From Betaproteobacteria bacterium (GTDB taxonomy: Bacteria; Pseudomonadota; Gammaproteobacteria; Burkholderiales; Casimicrobiaceae), in assembly GCA_013298695.1 (NCBI GenBank), contig JAAFIS010000006.1:62001-126000 (forward strand): a stretch of DNA of 64,000 nucleotides. Reading direction: 5' to 3'. Below the pieces are notes generated by a model that was given only the letters and a program-made list of their open reading frames with translations, had not been told where the DNA came from and searched no databases. This document shows positions 4,898 through 18,505 of this stretch, piece after piece (the stretch's first letter is position 1; each line of letters opens with the position of its first letter). Both the position numbers and the translations under genes were made by a program.

Positions 4898-5222
4898 GAT
4901 CGTGATCTCGGCGGCTGACTTAGCGCGCCGTGTGGCACGCCGAAAGCGCGTAATTGAACTGACAACAACCCGAAATTATAGCTTTCGGCGGACGGTTTTT
5001 TGTCGGTTCTCTGCAGACGCGCACTGCGACAAGCGCGAGCAGAACTTCAGCGAGTTTTTGGCTGTGGCGCGCGCACTCTTTCGCCCAACATCGCCGACGC
5101 CGTTTGGCAACGTAGGAGACAATCAGCAACTTCGCGACAGGCTCGTCTGCTGCGTACGCCATAGCGTCGCTTGCGCAACGAGACAACGTATTTGTTCGCC
5201 CTGTAGTCTAACGCCCCCATTT
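4898..5222. other. Divergent intergenic region (cytochrome c4 / engB)
   Basis: About 325 bases lie between two divergent genes. On the minus strand there is a perfect TATAAT at 4980-4975 about 80 bases before the cytochrome c4 ATG, but no good -35 element at 17 bases. The reading frame of engB stays open across this stretch up to 4818. The homology to EngB begins only at the ATG at 5223 and the upstream frame reads as non-coding, so I treat the whole stretch as promoter and leader DNA. Confidence 0.5.
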
Positions 5223-5912
5223 ATGCAAGCTGCCAAGCCCATTCGCCGGATCATCGATTCCGCCCATATTGAACGCATCACCCATTTTTCTGGGGCGAGC
5301 TTCGTTAAATCCGTTGTTGAGTATGATGGATGTCCGCCAGAAACTGGGCCCGAAGTCGCGTTCGTGGGTCGCTCCAATTCCGGAAAATCGAGCACCATCA
5401 ACAAATTTGCGGGGCAAACGCGCCTCGCGTACGCGAGCAAGATGCCGGGGCGTACGCGCGAGCTCAATTTTTTCGCGCTGCGCGGCGGCGGATATTTAGT
5501 TGATCTGCCGGGCTATGGATTTGCCCGAACACCGCGCGATAAACAACGTGTTTGGATTGGCGTGATCGAAGAATATCTTCGCTCGCGCTCAGCGCTGAAG
5601 GGCGTTGTGCTGCTGAGCGACGTGCGTCACGCACCGCACGCGATGGATCTTGAATTCATCGACTGGCTTAACCGCGAGAGCGAATCCAACATTCCGCGCC
5701 CCGCTGTGCTTTGGTTGCTCAATAAAGCCGACAAGCTCACGCAAAGCGAGCGCATGAAAATCGAGCGCGAAACTCGCGCGCAAATCGCTGAATATCTGCG
5801 TCCTGGCGACGCGGTGGTGTTGTTCTCTGCCCATAGTGGTCTGGGCATGAAACACTGCGCGACGACGTTTGACGCGTGGTTCACGCCGCCAGATCCGATC
5901 GCCGCCGACTAA
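5223..5912 (+). CDS. engB: Ribosome biogenesis GTP-binding protein EngB (YihA/YsxC)
   Basis: A 229-residue GTPase of the TrmE-Era-EngA-EngB family, needed for late assembly of the 50S ribosomal subunit. It has all five G motifs: G1 GRSNSGKSS, G2 in PGRTRELN, G3 DLPGYG, G4 NKAD, and G5 SAHSG. The open frame extends 135 codons further upstream, but family members start with a short lead like MQAAKPIRR, so the ATG at 5223 is chosen. A ribosome-binding site before it is weak. In many betaproteobacteria engB is next to a cytochrome c4 gene transcribed the other way, as it is here. Confidence 0.93.
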   Translation: MQAAKPIRRIIDSAHIERITHFSGASFVKSVVEYDGCPPETGPEVAFVGRSNSGKSSTINKFAGQTRLAYASKMPGRTRELNFFALRGGGYLVDLPGYGFARTPRDKQRVWIGVIEEYLRSRSALKGVVLLSDVRHAPHAMDLEFIDWLNRESESNIPRPAVLWLLNKADKLTQSERMKIERETRAQIAEYLRPGDAVVLFSAHSGLGMKHCATTFDAWFTPPDPIAAD

Positions 5913-5990
5913 ACGAGCAACGCGCTTGATGTTCTAAACAAACGCGTATTTGCGAGAGCTCGCCGTCAGGCCGTGAAGTTCGGATGAGGC

Positions 5991-6029
5991 AAAAGAAAAG
6001 CCCCGGATTACCTTAGCAATCAGAGGCTT
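5991..6029 (-). terminator. Strong intrinsic terminator, minus strand
   Basis: Read on the minus strand, arms AAGCCTCTGATTGC and GTAATCCGGGGCTT (6029-5998) close a TAAG loop. The 14-pair stem has one mismatch and two G-U pairs, and is followed directly by TTCTTTT (5997-5991). It ends a minus-strand transcript that cannot belong to engB. comM ends 325 bases upstream, and a good promoter lies between, so an independent RNA is the better explanation. Confidence 0.8.
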
Positions 6030-6105
6030 AATGTCCGAAGCCACATCGAGAAGAGGGAGCCGCGAACACCCGTTCAGGGAGGAGAAACGGGAGACGAAAC
6101 GTCTA
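5991..6105 (-). ncRNA. Candidate trans-acting small RNA with CUCCUCCC loop
   Basis: Between engB and comM the minus strand holds a complete small transcription unit of roughly 110-115 bases. The promoter is at 6140-6112. The predicted 5' end runs straight into a small hairpin (AGACG-TTT-CGTCT, 6104-6092). A second hairpin follows, with stem CCCGTT/AACGGG (6091-6086 and 6074-6069), whose 11-base loop reads TCTCCTCCCTG, a near-perfect complement of a Shine-Dalgarno sequence. Next is a pyrimidine-rich single strand (CTCCCTCTTCTC) and finally the terminator at 6029-5991. Exposed CCUCC loops are known from several bacterial small RNAs that block ribosome-binding sites. No known family is recognised, and expression is inferred only. 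Confidence 0.6.
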
Positions 6106-6111
6106 GCTCGA

Positions 6112-6140
6112 ATTCTGTTGACGTTTTCGAAGTCTGTCAA
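6112..6140 (-). promoter_or_regulatory. Sigma-70 promoter of the candidate small RNA
   Basis: On the minus strand a perfect -35 TTGACA (6140-6135) is followed after exactly 17 bases by CAGAAT (6117-6112), a 4/6 match to the -10 consensus. Transcription should start near 6105, at the foot of the first small-RNA hairpin. Confidence 0.6.
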
Positions 6141-6224
6141 GTGTCCAAGACAAAACGGCAGCTGACTACCCTAATTTTGATAGGCCGGATCGTTGGATCC
6201 ACAAATAGCTATTATGCTTATATC

Positions 6225-6240
6225 GCCCAATTTACTGGGC
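6225..6240. repeat. CCCAATT-type palindrome, short form
   Basis: GCCCA-ATTTAC-TGGGC lies 114 bases downstream of the comM stop on the minus strand. It shares the CGCCCAATT core with the elements at 3298 and 62455, but only five outer pairs are kept. Confidence 0.5.
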
Positions 6241-6353
6241 ATCACGCGGATTATTCGTTTTTTCGATATCTACATAAAAATTAATGTTTTCCCAATGGAA
6301 TGAACGTTAAATAGCGCTTTTCATTTTCACGAATGCAGCGACGCAACGCTGCT

Positions 6354-7850
6354 TTAAGTTTGCCGATACCCAAGCGCTTCCGCGAGATGTGAAAGCGCGA
6401 TCGGTTCAACACCCGCCAAATCAGCGATGGTGCGCGCAACGCGAACGACGCGATGCTGGGCGCGCGCAGACAGGCCCATCTTTACCGTGGCTTGCTGCAT
6501 CAGCGCTTCGCTTGAAGCGTCAAGCGCGCAAAGTTCAGCCAGTTCGCCCACGCCGAGCAGGGCGTTAGGTTTGCCTTGCCGCAGCAGCGCTCGGCCGTTG
6601 GCCTCGACCACTCGCTCACGAATCACCGCGCTCGCCTCTCCTAAGCCTTTGCTCGGGTCGCGAAGCATGTCGCTGCCCTGCATCGGCACCGTAATTTGCA
6701 TGTCGATTCGATCCAGTAGCGGCCCGGAAATGCGCCCGCGATAGCGCGCAATTTGGTCGGGCGTACAGCGGCAGGGCTTCGCTGCGATCTGGGCGCCGAG
6801 GTAGCCATCCGGACAGGGGTTCATCGCGGCGATCAACATGAAATTTGCGGGGTACGTAACCTGCCGTGCCGCGCGCGAAATGTTGATTGCGCGATTTTCA
6901 AGCGGCTCACGCAACACTTCGAGGATGCGTCGATCATATTCGGCGAATTCATCCAAAAACAAAACGCCGTGATGCGCGAGGGAGATTTCACCCGGTTTCG
7001 GATCGCTGCCGCCGCCTACCAGTGCCGCCGCACTCGCCGAGTGATGCGGGGCGCGAATCGGGCGCTCGGCGAACGCATCAGCGCGAAACTTTCCAACCAA
7101 AGACAACAGCGCAGCACTCTCGACCGCTTCTTGTTCGCTCATCGGCGGCAAGATGCTCGGCAAGCGATGCGCGAGCATACTTTTCCCGGTGCCGGGCGGA
7201 CCGATCAACAAAACGTTGTGACGCCCAGCGGCCGCGATTTCAAGCGCGCGTTTGGCCTGCGCCTGCCCGCGCACATCGGAAAAGTCAGGGTAAGTCGGCG
7301 CGCTGGCCGACGTTGCGACACTCGCTGCGGCTAACGATTGACGGCCGGCAACGTGCGCCGCAACCTGCAGCAGCGATTGCGCAGAAAGCACATGTGCGCC
7401 CGGCGCAAGTGCGGCTTCGGCCGCTGATGCCGCCGGAACGATCAGCGTGCGGCCCGAAGCCTTTGCAGCAAGCGCCATTGCGAGCGCGCCGCGCACTGGG
7501 CGAAGATCGCCGTTTAAGCCTAATTCACCGGCAAATTCGAATTCCGCCAGCCGCTTCACCGGCAACTGACCGCTGGCAGCGAGCAACGAAATCGCGATGG
7601 GGAGGTCAAACCGCCCTGATTCCTTGGGAATCTCGGCGGGTGCCAAATTCGCAGTGAGCTTGCGATACGGAAAATCGAAACCCGCGGTTTGGATCGCGGC
7701 GCGCACGCGATCACGGGATTCACGCACCTCAACCTCAGGCAATCCGACCAAATTGAACGCAGGGTTGCCGTTCGCGATGTGCAGTTCAACCGTCACCGGT
7801 TCGGCATGCATGCCCGAGAGGGCGCGAGAGTGTGCGATAGCGAGCGACAT
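6354..7850 (-). CDS. comM: ComM/YifB-family AAA+ ATPase (Mg-chelatase-like)
   Basis: A 498-residue protein of the YifB/ComM family. ComM is a hexameric branch-migration helicase that extends homologous joints during natural transformation. The N-terminal third is the ChlI/Lon-like fold (MSLAIAHSRALSGM, then VGLPEVEVRESRDRVRAA). The AAA+ core has Walker A GPPGTGKSMLA, Walker B VLFLDEFAEY, and a zinc-site-like NPCPDGYLG...CRCTPDQI region typical of the family. Length is normal. A consensus LexA operator lies 19-38 bases upstream of the start, which suggests induction with the SOS response. With the pilus genes in this window it would complete a DNA-uptake pathway, although no other competence gene is seen here. 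Confidence 0.93.
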   Translation of the reverse strand: MSLAIAHSRALSGMHAEPVTVELHIANGNPAFNLVGLPEVEVRESRDRVRAAIQTAGFDFPYRKLTANLAPAEIPKESGRFDLPIAISLLAASGQLPVKRLAEFEFAGELGLNGDLRPVRGALAMALAAKASGRTLIVPAASAAEAALAPGAHVLSAQSLLQVAAHVAGRQSLAAASVATSASAPTYPDFSDVRGQAQAKRALEIAAAGRHNVLLIGPPGTGKSMLAHRLPSILPPMSEQEAVESAALLSLVGKFRADAFAERPIRAPHHSASAAALVGGGSDPKPGEISLAHHGVLFLDEFAEYDRRILEVLREPLENRAINISRAARQVTYPANFMLIAAMNPCPDGYLGAQIAAKPCRCTPDQIARYRGRISGPLLDRIDMQITVPMQGSDMLRDPSKGLGEASAVIRERVVEANGRALLRQGKPNALLGVGELAELCALDASSEALMQQATVKMGLSARAQHRVVRVARTIADLAGVEPIALSHLAEALGYRQT

Positions 7851-7888: not shown

Positions 7889-8020
7889 TTTGCATGAGTC
7901 CGCCGCGTCGTTAGCCGTAGATTCAGAAGTTTTTGAGTTTGAGTGTTTTCCTCGCTCGGTCAACGGGTCTGTTTCGGGAGACGTTGGCTGAACACAAAAT
8001 CTGATTTCGTAGGAGGCCCT

Positions 8021-10159
8021 ATGTTTAGAGGCATTTCGAGAGTGTTTTCATGGTCTGCTGCGGCAGTTGCTTCTCTCGCGCTCGTCGCCGCGAACGCTTT
8101 CGCCGACGCGCCTGGTCGGGTCGCACGGCTCGCAGAATATGCGGGCGACGTTCGCGTGGCCTCGCAAGCCGACGGCTGGCAGCCTGCGTATCGCAACAAT
8201 GTGATTACCGCAGGTGACAACTTGTGGGTCAGTGACGGCGGACGCGCTGAACTCGACGTCGGTCCACTGCAGGTGTGGCTCTCCGGCGGCGCAAACATCT
8301 ATTTCGAGCGTTTCGACGATCAGAACTTAGTTGCGCGCTTGGCTAGCGGAATCATTGCTGTGCGCATTCGTCAGTGGGAACCACGCGACGCGATGCGGGT
8401 GGCCACCGAGCATGGCGAAGTGTCGTTCACGCAGCCCGGCTTGTATTTCGTAACCGCGGGCAATCGAAGCTTCCCGAGCGTCGTTGCAACGCGTTTCGGT
8501 CAAGCTGAGCTCAATACGTTTGGGCGCATCAATGCGGTAAATCGCGATGAAACTTTCGCGTTCGACCAAGGCGGCACGCGTTTTGATCGATTCGCGTATG
8601 CGGGCGTGGCCAGCGGTGGCTTTGAATCGTGGGTGGTTGCGCGCGATCGTCGGATTGAGCGCTGGGAATCGCGCAATCGAGGTTACTTTAATCCTTGGAT
8701 GGTCGGCGTGCGTGATCTCGACGATCACGGCTACTGGGAATCAAACTACGAATATGGACGGGTTTGGTATCCGAACACGGTGTCTTCGAATTGGGCGCCG
8801 TATCGCTATGGTCGCTGGTCGTGGGTGCAGCCTTGGGGCTGGACTTGGGTTGACGACGCGCCGTGGGGCTTCGCGCCGTTTCACTACGGTCGCTGGGTGC
8901 GCGTCGGCGGTCGCTGGGCTTGGTGCCCGGGCTCGTACGTCGGTCGCGCTGTTTACGCGCCTGCGCTAGTCACGTTCTACGGCGGCAATGGTTGGAGCGT
9001 GAACGCTTCGGTCGGACCAACCTATTCTTGGGTGCCGCTCGGCTGGAACGAACCGTATGTGCCTTGGTACACCTATTCGCCGAATTACTGGCGCACGGTG
9101 AACCGCCCATACGTTAGAAACAGCGCCGAAGACCCGTGGCGTCCGCCAGCATACGTTCACGCAAGCGTGCCCGGTGCGATCACCACCATCGCAGCTGCCG
9201 GGTTGATCTCCGGGCGTCCGGTCGCTCAAAACTACATTCGCAACGTACCAACTCCGGATCTCCGAGCCGCGCCGCCGGCTCGGATGGGCGAAGTGATTCC
9301 GCAAGTTCGCGGCGCGCGCTTTGATCCGAATCCAGTCGCGCCGCGCGCTGGTGTGAGTGAAGTTGCGCCACCGGTGCGTGGTTCACCGCCTGCGGGCGCA
9401 GTAACCGAGTCTGCACCGGGTCGCGCGCAACCGTTCCCGCAGGTGCGCGAGCGCGCAGCGGCACCGATTCAACCAAACGTTAACGTCGCGCAGCCGCGTG
9501 TTTGGCAAGATCCAAACCCGATTGCACCGCAGCGCGTGGAAGCGCCGATACGCGGGACGGAACGAGGGCTGGAGCGGGGGGTGCCAGTGCGTGAACCCGC
9601 TACACGTGAGCCGGGCATGCGTGAACCGCTGTCGCCGCCGCCCGTGCGAGAGGGCGCGACAAGTGCGCCGCCGTCGCCGCGGGAGCGCAACGCGCCTGAA
9701 CCTCGCGAACTTCGCGAACCTCGCAATGTTGCGCCAAGTGCTGCTCCCGGCGGCCCCGGTGTTCGTGCGCCAATTGAAGAACGAAGTGCGCCGCCTGAAA
9801 ACAAAGGCCGCGCACCTGCTCCTGGCCCTGGACCACAAAGCAGCGTTGCCCCACCCGCCGTCGAGCGTGCTCCGCGTGCGCTGGTCGCACCACGCGCGGA
9901 TACCGTAGCTTCGGACCAGCGAGCAGAACAAGCTCGTGAGCGACAAGCGCTTCGCGCGCAACAACGAGAGCGCGAAACGGCGATACGCGTTGCGCAACGA
10001 AACAGCGCCGCAGAAGAAGCGAAAGTCGTGCGCGCGGTGCGTGAGAAAGAACGGCGCGTTGAAGTGCGTGAGAGCGAGCCGCGACCACGATTGAAAGAAA
10101 AAGCACACGCTAATCAAGATACGCAGCGTGAAAACATCAAAAAGCGTGAACCGCTATAG
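8021..10159 (+). CDS. Exported FecR-like / DUF6600 protein with Pro/Arg-rich tail
   Basis: A 712-residue envelope protein starting at ATG 8021 behind a strong AGGAGG; the frame is open further upstream but that start is clearly better. Residues 1-29 are a signal peptide ending ANAFADA. Residues 30-180 look like a FecR-type beta domain (GDVRVASQADGWQPA, GGRAELDVGPLQVWLSGG). Residues 230-350 are full of W, Y and G with repeats such as YGRWSWVQPWGWTWVDD and FHYGRWVRVGGRWAW, the hallmark of DUF6600. From about 380 the chain is proline-, arginine- and alanine-rich with REP-type repeats, and it ends in a basic, probably helical segment. Function is unknown; a periplasmic structural or surface role is a guess. 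Confidence 0.8.
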   Translation: MFRGISRVFSWSAAAVASLALVAANAFADAPGRVARLAEYAGDVRVASQADGWQPAYRNNVITAGDNLWVSDGGRAELDVGPLQVWLSGGANIYFERFDDQNLVARLASGIIAVRIRQWEPRDAMRVATEHGEVSFTQPGLYFVTAGNRSFPSVVATRFGQAELNTFGRINAVNRDETFAFDQGGTRFDRFAYAGVASGGFESWVVARDRRIERWESRNRGYFNPWMVGVRDLDDHGYWESNYEYGRVWYPNTVSSNWAPYRYGRWSWVQPWGWTWVDDAPWGFAPFHYGRWVRVGGRWAWCPGSYVGRAVYAPALVTFYGGNGWSVNASVGPTYSWVPLGWNEPYVPWYTYSPNYWRTVNRPYVRNSAEDPWRPPAYVHASVPGAITTIAAAGLISGRPVAQNYIRNVPTPDLRAAPPARMGEVIPQVRGARFDPNPVAPRAGVSEVAPPVRGSPPAGAVTESAPGRAQPFPQVRERAAAPIQPNVNVAQPRVWQDPNPIAPQRVEAPIRGTERGLERGVPVREPATREPGMREPLSPPPVREGATSAPPSPRERNAPEPRELREPRNVAPSAAPGGPGVRAPIEERSAPPENKGRAPAPGPGPQSSVAPPAVERAPRALVAPRADTVASDQRAEQARERQALRAQQRERETAIRVAQRNSAAEEAKVVRAVREKERRVEVRESEPRPRLKEKAHANQDTQRENIKKREPL

Positions 10160-16289: not shown

Positions 16290-18505
16290 AGTGCCGTATA
16301 AATATTTTCACCGGGACCGTAGGGGCCCGATTGTTCGCCTCTCTAGTGGCGCTGAGCGGTATTGGCGCACTGAGTGCGCCCGCCATCGCGCAAAACGTAA
16401 TTGAGGACGTCGCAGTCGCTAAAGGCGCCGCCGGCCGCACCACCTTAACGTTTAGCTTGAAGGATGCAACCGCGGCGCCTCCAACTGTGTTTTCGATCGC
16501 GTCTCCACCTCGGCTTGTTTTGGATTTCCCAAACACCAATAGCGCAACTAAGCCTACTGTAGAGGTTTCAGACGCAGTAGTTCGTAGTTACAACATAGTA
16601 CAGGCGCAAGGCCGTACACGCGTGGTGCTCAACTTAGTTAAACCGCAGTCGTACGACTTAAAGGTTGATGGCGGTAAGGTCGCGCTGGCGCTATTCGACG
16701 CCGCTGGCACTGCGGTTGCCGATGCGACACCAGATACCGGCCGATTTGCGGCTTCGAGTAAGAGCGACGGGGTGACTTACAGCTTGCGTGATGTGGACTT
16801 CCGTCGCGGCACTGCGGGTGAGGGTCGAGTCATTGTTGACCTTTCTGCGGCTAACTCCGGTGTCGAAATCAAGCCGCAGGGCAAAGTCTTGATCATTGAT
16901 TTTTTGCGTACGCAAGTCCCTCGCAATCTTGAACGCAAACTAGACGTAACGGACTTTGGTACGCCGGTGCAAATGATTGACACCTTCGTCCAGGGCGCAA
17001 ACACCCGTATGGTTATCGAACCGAAAGGACTTTGGGAACATTCTGCGTACCAAACGGACAATCGCCTAATTGTCGAAATCAAGCCGATCATCGAAGACCC
17101 GAACAAACTAACCCAGGGCTCGCGTGCGGGATATAAGGGCGAAAAGCTCTCCCTCAATTTCCAAGACATCGCAGTACGATCCGTCCTCCAGGTCATCGGT
17201 GACTTCACTGGGCTCAACATCATCGTATCCGACACAGTAACGGGCAACGTAACGCTACGCCTTAAGGATGTGCCGTGGGATCAAGCGCTTGATCTGGTGA
17301 TGCAAGCCAGATCGCTCGATATGCGCAAGAACGGCAACGTAGTATGGATTGCACCGAAAGAAGAGTTAGCGCTTAAAGAGAAACAAGAGCTAGAGGCGAA
17401 GGCTCAAGTGGCTGACATCGAGCCTCTGCGCACGGAGATCTTCCAGCTTAACTATCAAAAGGCTGACGAAGTTCGGAAAATGATTACTCCGCAGGCCGGC
17501 ACTGGCGGAGCGGCGGGGAGCACCGGAGGCGTGCTATCGAAACGCGGCACTTCAACGGTGGACGCGAGAACGAACGTCTTGATTGTGCAGGACACACCAT
17601 CCAAACTCGACGAAGTGCGAAGACTTCTCCAGCGCATTGATATTGCCGTGAAGCAAGTTGTTATTGAAGCGCGAGTCGTAATAGCCGATGACAAATTCAG
17701 TCGTCAGCTTGGTGCGCGATTTGGAATTGGGGCCGGCATCTACAACAATGGTCGCAATATCGCGGTCAATGGGCGTCCTGATGGTGACGCGAACGGCGCG
17801 CTAGCAAATGTGCCAACCACCTGGACGGCGACGGGTCTACCTCCTCCCTACTACTACACGAGAATCAAAACCGAAGACGGCGTACGCACGTGGGAAAACA
17901 TCAACTCTGTCCCCTACAACGTAAATCTTCCAGTTTCGAATGCTGCCGGATCCTTGGCACTAACATTTTTGAATTTAGGGAATGGAAATCTGGTCAATCT
18001 TGAGCTTTCTGCAGCGGAGGCCGCGAATCGCGGCAAGGTCATTTCGAGCCCACGAGTCGTGACGGCCGACAACACCAAAGCGTTTATCGAACAAGGACAA
18101 GAGATAAAACTTCGTGTATCAGGCGGGGTTGGCGGCGCTGGAAGCGTTGTAACTGTCAATGCAAAATTAGGACTCGAGGTCACGCCACAGGTGACCCCCG
18201 ATGGCAAAGTCGTGTTGGACGTTTCCATAACAAAAGACTCAATTGCTGGATTTACTGACGGAAATCCAATCGTAAACACTCGCCGTGTGACGACTAAAGT
18301 CGTAGTTAACAACGGCGACACTGCTGTACTAGGCGGCATCTATGAAGAAACGATTACCGATACAGTGGATAAAGTACCGTTCCTAGGAGATGCGCCGCTT
18401 GTGGGTAATCTGTTTCGCAGAACGAATCGTGGCTCCGACAAACAGGAACTCTTGATTTTCCTCACTCCGCGAGTTGCGACCGATGCAAGTGGTGTGGTTA
18501 GATAA
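16286..18505 (+). CDS. pilQ: Type IV pilus secretin PilQ
   Basis: A 739-residue outer-membrane channel for the pilus. The ATG at 16286 overlaps the pilP stop and gives a signal peptide ending PAIAQ near residue 36; the frame is open 17 codons further but within pilP. Domain order: two AMIN domains (about 40-125 and 145-245) for peptidoglycan binding, a secretin/TonB short domain (LSLNFQDIAVRSVLQVI), a secretin N domain with a glycine-rich insertion, and the C-terminal secretin barrel ending VPFLGDAPLVGNLFRR and ELLIFLTPRV. Its length is near the family norm. A probable terminator follows at 18527-18555. Confidence 0.96.
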   Translation: MKCRINIFTGTVGARLFASLVALSGIGALSAPAIAQNVIEDVAVAKGAAGRTTLTFSLKDATAAPPTVFSIASPPRLVLDFPNTNSATKPTVEVSDAVVRSYNIVQAQGRTRVVLNLVKPQSYDLKVDGGKVALALFDAAGTAVADATPDTGRFAASSKSDGVTYSLRDVDFRRGTAGEGRVIVDLSAANSGVEIKPQGKVLIIDFLRTQVPRNLERKLDVTDFGTPVQMIDTFVQGANTRMVIEPKGLWEHSAYQTDNRLIVEIKPIIEDPNKLTQGSRAGYKGEKLSLNFQDIAVRSVLQVIGDFTGLNIIVSDTVTGNVTLRLKDVPWDQALDLVMQARSLDMRKNGNVVWIAPKEELALKEKQELEAKAQVADIEPLRTEIFQLNYQKADEVRKMITPQAGTGGAAGSTGGVLSKRGTSTVDARTNVLIVQDTPSKLDEVRRLLQRIDIAVKQVVIEARVVIADDKFSRQLGARFGIGAGIYNNGRNIAVNGRPDGDANGALANVPTTWTATGLPPPYYYTRIKTEDGVRTWENINSVPYNVNLPVSNAAGSLALTFLNLGNGNLVNLELSAAEAANRGKVISSPRVVTADNTKAFIEQGQEIKLRVSGGVGGAGSVVTVNAKLGLEVTPQVTPDGKVVLDVSITKDSIAGFTDGNPIVNTRRVTTKVVVNNGDTAVLGGIYEETITDTVDKVPFLGDAPLVGNLFRRTNRGSDKQELLIFLTPRVATDASGVVR

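Follow-up and report, generated by a model that had tools for sequence, protein, structure and literature searches.

In the gap between comM and engB, the minus strand of the window (the whole 64,000-nucleotide stretch of DNA analyzed here) carries a TTGACA-17-CAGAAT promoter motif followed by hairpins, a CUCCUCCCU loop, and a terminator, and the RNA that these elements would delimit runs from about 6106 to 5991. Promoter, hairpins, loop, and terminator are present on this strand as the first-pass annotation described them. The RNA is convergent with engB, and 68 nt separate the engB stop from the match of our own model, R1. The comM frame stops at 6354, which puts some 250 bases between it and the predicted 5′ end of the RNA; the distance of more than 300 bases given earlier holds when counted from the terminator only. 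Adjoining comM is a 738-codon open frame (7943–10159, plus strand), the C-terminal half of which is rich in proline and arginine; it has no NCBIfam match at E 1e-5. The features of the locus are as follows:

5196..5912, plus strand: engB/ysxC (GTPase), convergent neighbor; TIGR03598, 188.4 bits (cutoff 124.45); start inferred
5991..6106, minus strand: small RNA gene, diverged homologue of RF02837 (anti-hemB); ends predicted
6094-5992, minus strand: RF02837 model match, 40.6 bits, E 3.6e-8
6106-5980, minus strand: match of our own model R1, 70.8 bits; the window copy is part of the R1 training set
6112..6140, minus strand: sigma70-type promoter TTGACA-17-CAGAAT, by motif; sigma70-type in 8 of 8 genus copies
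6140-6135, minus strand: −35 box TTGACA (sequence), then a 17-base spacer
6117-6112, minus strand: −10 box CAGAAT (sequence)
6092..6104, minus strand: hairpin 1 (AGACG/CGUCU), short, at the 5′ end; predicted fold, covariation
6069..6091, minus strand: hairpin 2, stem CCCGUU/AACGGG with the anti-Shine-Dalgarno loop CUCCUCCCU; predicted fold, covariation
6084-6076, minus strand: loop CUCCUCCCU of hairpin 2 (sequence), read out as CTCCTCCCT
6032..6068, minus strand: hairpin 3, bigger than its counterpart in most relatives; predicted fold, alignment
6059-6048, minus strand: second CU-rich stretch CUCCCUCUUCUC, in hairpin 3 (sequence)
5991..6029, minus strand: intrinsic terminator hairpin and T-run, without the C-rich loop of most non-genus copies; predicted fold
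5999-5991, minus strand: terminator T-run TTTTCTTTT (sequence)
6354..7850, minus strand: comM/yifB-type AAA ATPase gene, upstream of the RNA; TIGR00368, 577.8 bits (cutoff 362.4)

Folding of 6106–5985 gave −40.5 kcal/mol, compared with −29.48 ± 3.04 kcal/mol for dinucleotide shuffles (z = −3.63), and none of the 200 shuffles was as good. The predicted fold starts at the 5′ end with a short hairpin; the hairpin with the CU loop, a further hairpin, and the terminator follow. It thus has one short hairpin beyond the two hairpins and terminator reported earlier. A simple terminator scan missed this terminator, the stem of which is interrupted.

Conservation of the structure was assessed in alignment A1, which contains 39 copies, all from the order; a joint MAFFT alignment of the order and class copies (A2) yielded three consensus pairs only and was left unused for structure. 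The A1 consensus comprises 24 pairs in four helices, with changes on both sides in 16 pairs. Paired cells amount to 94.3%, compared with 86.4% in shuffles and 28.8% to 53.0% with the structure slid, and the covariation score is 0.277, compared with 0.135 in shuffles. On five measures, none of 500 shuffles reached any of the observed values, in a control that leaves kinship between the copies uncorrected. All four pairs of the hairpin 1 helix show changes on both sides. The CCCGTT/AACGGG stem is more rigid: five of its seven pairs are invariant and a single pair covaries (C-G in 34, U-A in 4, and U-G in 1 of the 39 rows), the U-A variant occurring in L001, L004, L005, and L008, all from the window's genus; the remaining three helices covary more. 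The stretch CTCCCTGA is identical in 39 of the 39 copies. Compensatory change in this stem around an invariant loop, which the first-pass annotation had proposed looking for, therefore exists, thinly, as one covarying pair and a loop the first bases of which vary. The window copy has a bigger hairpin 3 than most rows do, and the C-run that most non-genus rows show in the terminator loop is missing from it. By itself, the promoter is within chance, a scan of 5 kb giving one site with 1.6 ± 1.4 expected; the locus stands above chance because the genus copies keep the promoter (8/8) and the stems covary.

At gathering scores, the window was without any Rfam match, and the first-pass annotation, recognizing no named family, called the RNA an orphan. 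That label has to be given up. RF02837, anti-hemB (Burkholderia RNA 7), matches along its full model (1–81 of 81) with 40.6 bits and E 3.6e-8 in a search of 451 bases; the four other Rfam families listed for 5900–6350 all have E 6.3 or worse. The score lies below the curated RF02837 gathering cutoff of 49.5 bits, which is an operational threshold and no property of the RNA itself. In a whole-genome search, the window RNA is the better of two RF02837 matches (E 7.7e-8), and it has the hairpin that is a feature of the family, with a CUCCUCCCU loop closed by CCCGYU/ARCGGG. At the same place between comM and engB, another member of the genus (G008) carries a copy that scores 58.1 bits, above the cutoff. 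Judged on sequence, the window RNA is a diverged member of RF02837, and we call it a diverged orthologue because its 40.6 bits are below the cutoff but the same-place copy reaches 58.1 bits. Across the order, RF02837 matches 164 of 200 genomes at E ≤ 0.01 and exceeds the cutoff in 132 of the 200. The order would be Burkholderiales, to judge by the name of the RNA family and by the class, one genome of which (G390) has an engB identical to the Stutzerimonas stutzeri gene. Among 14 well-known control genomes, five match at E ≤ 0.01, none of them above the cutoff, and one (Caulobacter) at E ≤ 1e-4. Compared with anti-hemB of Burkholderia cenocepacia (ncS04 and, going by its name, probably also Bc7), the window RNA shares the full-length model match, hairpin 2 with its loop, the convergent place at engB, and a terminator of its own; it differs in its score below the cutoff, a sigma70-type rather than sigmaE-type promoter, a larger third hairpin, a terminator loop that is not C-rich, and comM as upstream gene.

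To describe the surroundings of these RNAs, we used 41 order loci (L001–L041), which were fetched as best matches and hence are a nonrandom sample, with L011 and L026 representing one place. An engB gene lies within about 1.5 kb of the RNA in 38 of the 41 and the RNA is convergent with it in 37; one locus (L024) is co-directional, and three (L013, L023, and L041) have no visible engB. A c-type cytochrome gene was found in 36/41 loci, and comM in 6/41, all from the window's genus. Across the class, RF02837 matches 142 of 369 genomes at E ≤ 1e-4 (139 of 365 outside the order) and is above the cutoff in 20 of 369. Distances to engB were taken for 54 class genomes among the matches listed, using the best RNA place per genome: in 39, RNA and engB converge within 1 kb of each other (median distance 56 nt), in two they are co-directional within 1 kb, and in 13 the RNA lies elsewhere, 11 of these on another contig.

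A set of engB flanks was also chosen blind to the RNA, by engB score. It holds 90 loci outside the order (L072–L101 and L186–L245), passed over G050, G591, and G369, and has a few flanks shortened by contig ends, that of L210 nearly wholly. R1, which was built solely from the order's copies, gave 32 matches at E ≤ 0.01 in 31 of the 90 loci and no match at this threshold in the other 59. Besides the window's RNA, 39 of the 45 matches listed up to E 1 were placed relative to engB; 38 are convergent with it, at −41 to +417 nt, and the one in L198 is co-directional. Left unplaced were L216 255–384, L074, L078, L093, L214 671–793, and position 17345 of the window (E 0.055–0.82). There is good support for an extension of anti-hemB into other Gammaproteobacteria. 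Copies that read in the direction of engB were seen in L198, L024, and G438. Several Gammaproteobacteria have tandem RF02837-like RNAs (L047, L052, L053, and L066, two matches each), with engB present in L053 and L066 and none seen in L047 and L052; multiple RF02837-like places occur in G399 and G490 (four each) and in G506 (at least three). Near engB of another gammaproteobacterial genome, there is a c-di-GMP-I riboswitch (L058, 2037–2121, minus strand, 77.9 bits).

Within the window's genus, persistence in close relatives, on which the first-pass annotation had staked its claim, is partial. Of 17 genomes, eight have an R1 match, always between comM and engB, and at E 0.01 the RNA is not found in the other nine, the completeness of which is 80% to 99%. 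In five of these (G003, G005, G011, G012, and G013; loci L258, L259, L261, L260, and L268), the gap is gone, comM ending no more than about 75 nt from engB or overlapping it, and some lineages therefore do without the RNA. G010 has the gap and no RNA, G009 and G016 show no comM in the locus, and engB was not found in G014 (80% complete).

Promoter type sets this genus apart. The sigmaE-type pattern GAAC[TC]-N14-19-TC, written after the sequences were seen and modeled on what we take to be the sigmaE consensus, lies upstream of the RNA in 31 of 33 other order copies (0.93 expected from letter shuffles), in 20 of 32 class copies from the engB flanks (0.62 expected), and in none of the eight copies from the window's genus. 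In all eight, TTGAC[AT] is followed by a −10 box (0.07 expected), a combination seen in 1 of 33 order copies elsewhere and 0 of 32 class copies. Judged by these motifs, the window's genus appears to have exchanged a stress-type promoter for a housekeeping one. Loss of RpoE was considered as the cause and rejected, because RpoE is kept in 15 of 17 genus genomes; Hfq is found in 16 of 17, and the window's genome has both genes. Between the −35 and −10 boxes, L247, L248, and L249 (from G006, G007, and G004) share TTGTCTAGGACG, a possible operator that is absent from the window copy.

Other small RNAs occupy comparable places. In the excerpts available to us, ErsA is located between polA and engB (PMC8575079) and depends on sigma22, the RpoE counterpart (PMC6321483, PMC5819304). 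Excerpts of the study on sX13 describe an RNA with three C-rich apical loops that represses via G-rich motifs near start codons, always lies downstream of polA, and acts independently of Hfq; they also put ar7 at a polA-like locus and ask whether the polA locus elsewhere encodes such RNAs too (PMC3771888). In E. coli, the order is polA, spf (Spot 42), and convergent yihA/engB. At places of RF02837 or R1 matches, the models of these families gave scores that are weak and all below cutoff: sX13 (RF02232, Xanthomonas), 39.5, 37.9, 34.1, 33.3, and 30.6 bits, in five class loci; ar14, 38.6, 36.2, 30.9, and 30.2 bits; ErsA, 32.9, 32.4, and 29.5 bits; and ar7, 28.4 bits. The alphaproteobacterial ar7 and ar14 models thus match some RNAs from class engB flanks, at 28.4 to 38.6 bits. 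At L187 and the second L216 place, the cross-family agreement is with R1, not RF02837. A bridge scan of 80 loci (E ≤ 0.01 for 20, E ≤ 0.1 for 60) returned a c-di-GMP riboswitch and cspA as the only other Rfam matches.

In Pseudomonas-group loci, RF01719 (ErsA, Pseudomon-1) is above cutoff, on the strand convergent with engB, in all eight loci scanned, and RF02837 has no match up to E 1 in any of these. R1, made without Pseudomonas, matches the ErsA coordinates in 8 of 11 such loci, weakly (E 0.0043–0.2), and these eight have no second R1 match up to E 1; L106, L109, and L120 escaped it, and by eye L120 carries ErsA. The window RNA resembles ErsA in being convergent with engB, but it has neither an RF01719 match (5900–6350, E 10) nor a sigma22-type promoter motif, and the scores between R1 and ErsA are weak. 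Over the same 451 bases and at the same E, sX13 (RF02232), ar7 and ar14 (RF02342 and RF02344), and Spot 42 (RF00021) gave no match, nor did Spot 42 at gathering score in the window. The best R1 match in the 2.2-kb E. coli spf locus is Spot 42, but with 7.1 bits and E 0.034; kinship in sequence is unsupported, and Spot 42 would be linked to the anti-hemB family by place only. The place-consistent matches link ErsA, sX13, ar7, and ar14 to anti-hemB weakly. We lean slightly toward the view that the engB/polA gap holds one ancient sigmaE-controlled small RNA gene of Beta-, Gamma-, and perhaps Alphaproteobacteria, which would be split across Rfam families (anti-hemB, ErsA, sX13, ar7, and ar14, the place being taken by Spot 42 in enterobacteria) and which the window's genus would have rewired to a housekeeping promoter and lost in several lineages. 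The C-rich loops could instead have arisen by convergent evolution at a favored locus. The available excerpts of the open-licence literature state no link of anti-hemB with ErsA, sX13, Spot 42, or RpoE, and the engB-anchored link between anti-hemB and ErsA and the promoter swap are apparently new.

As to function, the excerpts at hand describe ncS04 of B. cenocepacia as a 105-nt RNA with a terminator, the gene orientation ← → ←, a convergent gene on its 3′ side, a 3′ end determined by RACE, and Northern panels; it copurified with Hfq, and none of the seven conditions of Table 2 altered its level significantly (PMC5688073, PMC4603805). Bc7 is predicted to target hemB (PMC6321483, in excerpt). 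Two Hfq-dependent RNAs of Bordetella pertussis have C/T-rich seeds, and their RIL-seq partners share a Shine-Dalgarno-like motif (PMC12235514, likewise in excerpt). Fold, covariation, conservation, and homology to the transcribed, Hfq-bound B. cenocepacia RNA support the proposal that the gap between engB and comM encodes a small RNA whose loop is of the anti-Shine-Dalgarno type. We consider it probable (about 0.8) that the locus encodes a diverged anti-hemB orthologue with its own sigma70-type promoter and terminator, most likely an Hfq-dependent, trans-acting Shine-Dalgarno repressor. In the window's organism, the RNA would be transcribed from this promoter and stop at its own terminator; it would most likely bind Hfq and repress in trans, the exposed CUCCUCCCU loop pairing with the Shine-Dalgarno regions of several mRNAs, perhaps joined by the second CU-rich stretch. 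We infer translational repression by the loop from the literature on ncS04, Bc7, and B. pertussis. The housekeeping-type promoter of the window's genus would change regulation to constitutive synthesis rather than synthesis on envelope stress.

The search of the genome for targets by loop complement and GGGAGGAG gave no convincing candidate, because the 13-base complement of the loop region, with at most one mismatch, was found nowhere beyond the RNA gene itself, and GGGAGGAG lies 2 to 10 bases before an ATG at five places genome-wide, compared with one for the reversed control. Of the frames at these five places, three are short, with 53, 25, and 2 codons. The longer ones, with 302 and 501 codons, are by eye an RsgA-type GTPase (with 11 contiguous complementary bases, also by eye) and an exported repeat protein; we do not count them as evidence for targets.

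Other readings of the locus were weighed against the proposed repressor. A role as a sponge for a second RNA or a protein, or an action on ribosomes via the Shine-Dalgarno complement instead of on individual mRNAs, would suit a CU-rich molecule with two pyrimidine stretches and no extended complementarity elsewhere in the genome. It is nonetheless unlikely, given that, in the excerpted reports, ErsA and sX13 repress chosen mRNAs (PMC6321483, PMC3771888) and Bordetella RNAs with like seeds pair with many mRNAs (PMC12235514). The convergent genes on both sides and the terminator hairpin at the end would also fit a cis element, that is, a terminator for one or both convergent units or an attenuator, with hairpins kept for termination only. 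Such an element would hardly call for a promoter motif upstream (31/33, 20/32, and, for the sigma70 type, 8/8 copies) or a conserved loop; comM is upstream in only 6/41 order loci, and the B. cenocepacia homologue is, as excerpted, a discrete 105-nt Hfq-bound transcript, so that we regard this reading as quite improbable.

Two further readings deserve very little weight. That the RNA is an orphan outside known families agrees with the empty Rfam search at gathering scores, but the full-length RF02837 match and the above-cutoff G008 copy at the same place in our view already refute it. We give almost no credence to a second function of the RNA as the message for a small protein, of the kind annotated for spf (SpfP, E. 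coli K-12). A 68-codon TTG frame does run through the RNA (5934–6140), but it begins in the −35 box and continues beyond the terminator, for which it was rejected as an explanation of the locus, and the paired changes and loop identity fit constraint on an RNA.

Anti-hemB, present in 164 of 200 order genomes, is a little-studied RNA for which a target has been predicted (hemB, in the case of Bc7); for ErsA and sX13, the excerpts cited above describe targets that have been studied. If true, the engB-anchored homology would carry the hypotheses of sigmaE control, Hfq dependence, and covering of ribosome-binding sites from ErsA to anti-hemB. It would also speak to what the excerpted sX13 paper (PMC3771888) asks about polA-locus RNAs in other bacteria. 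The window's genus offers a natural experiment on promoter swap and RNA loss.
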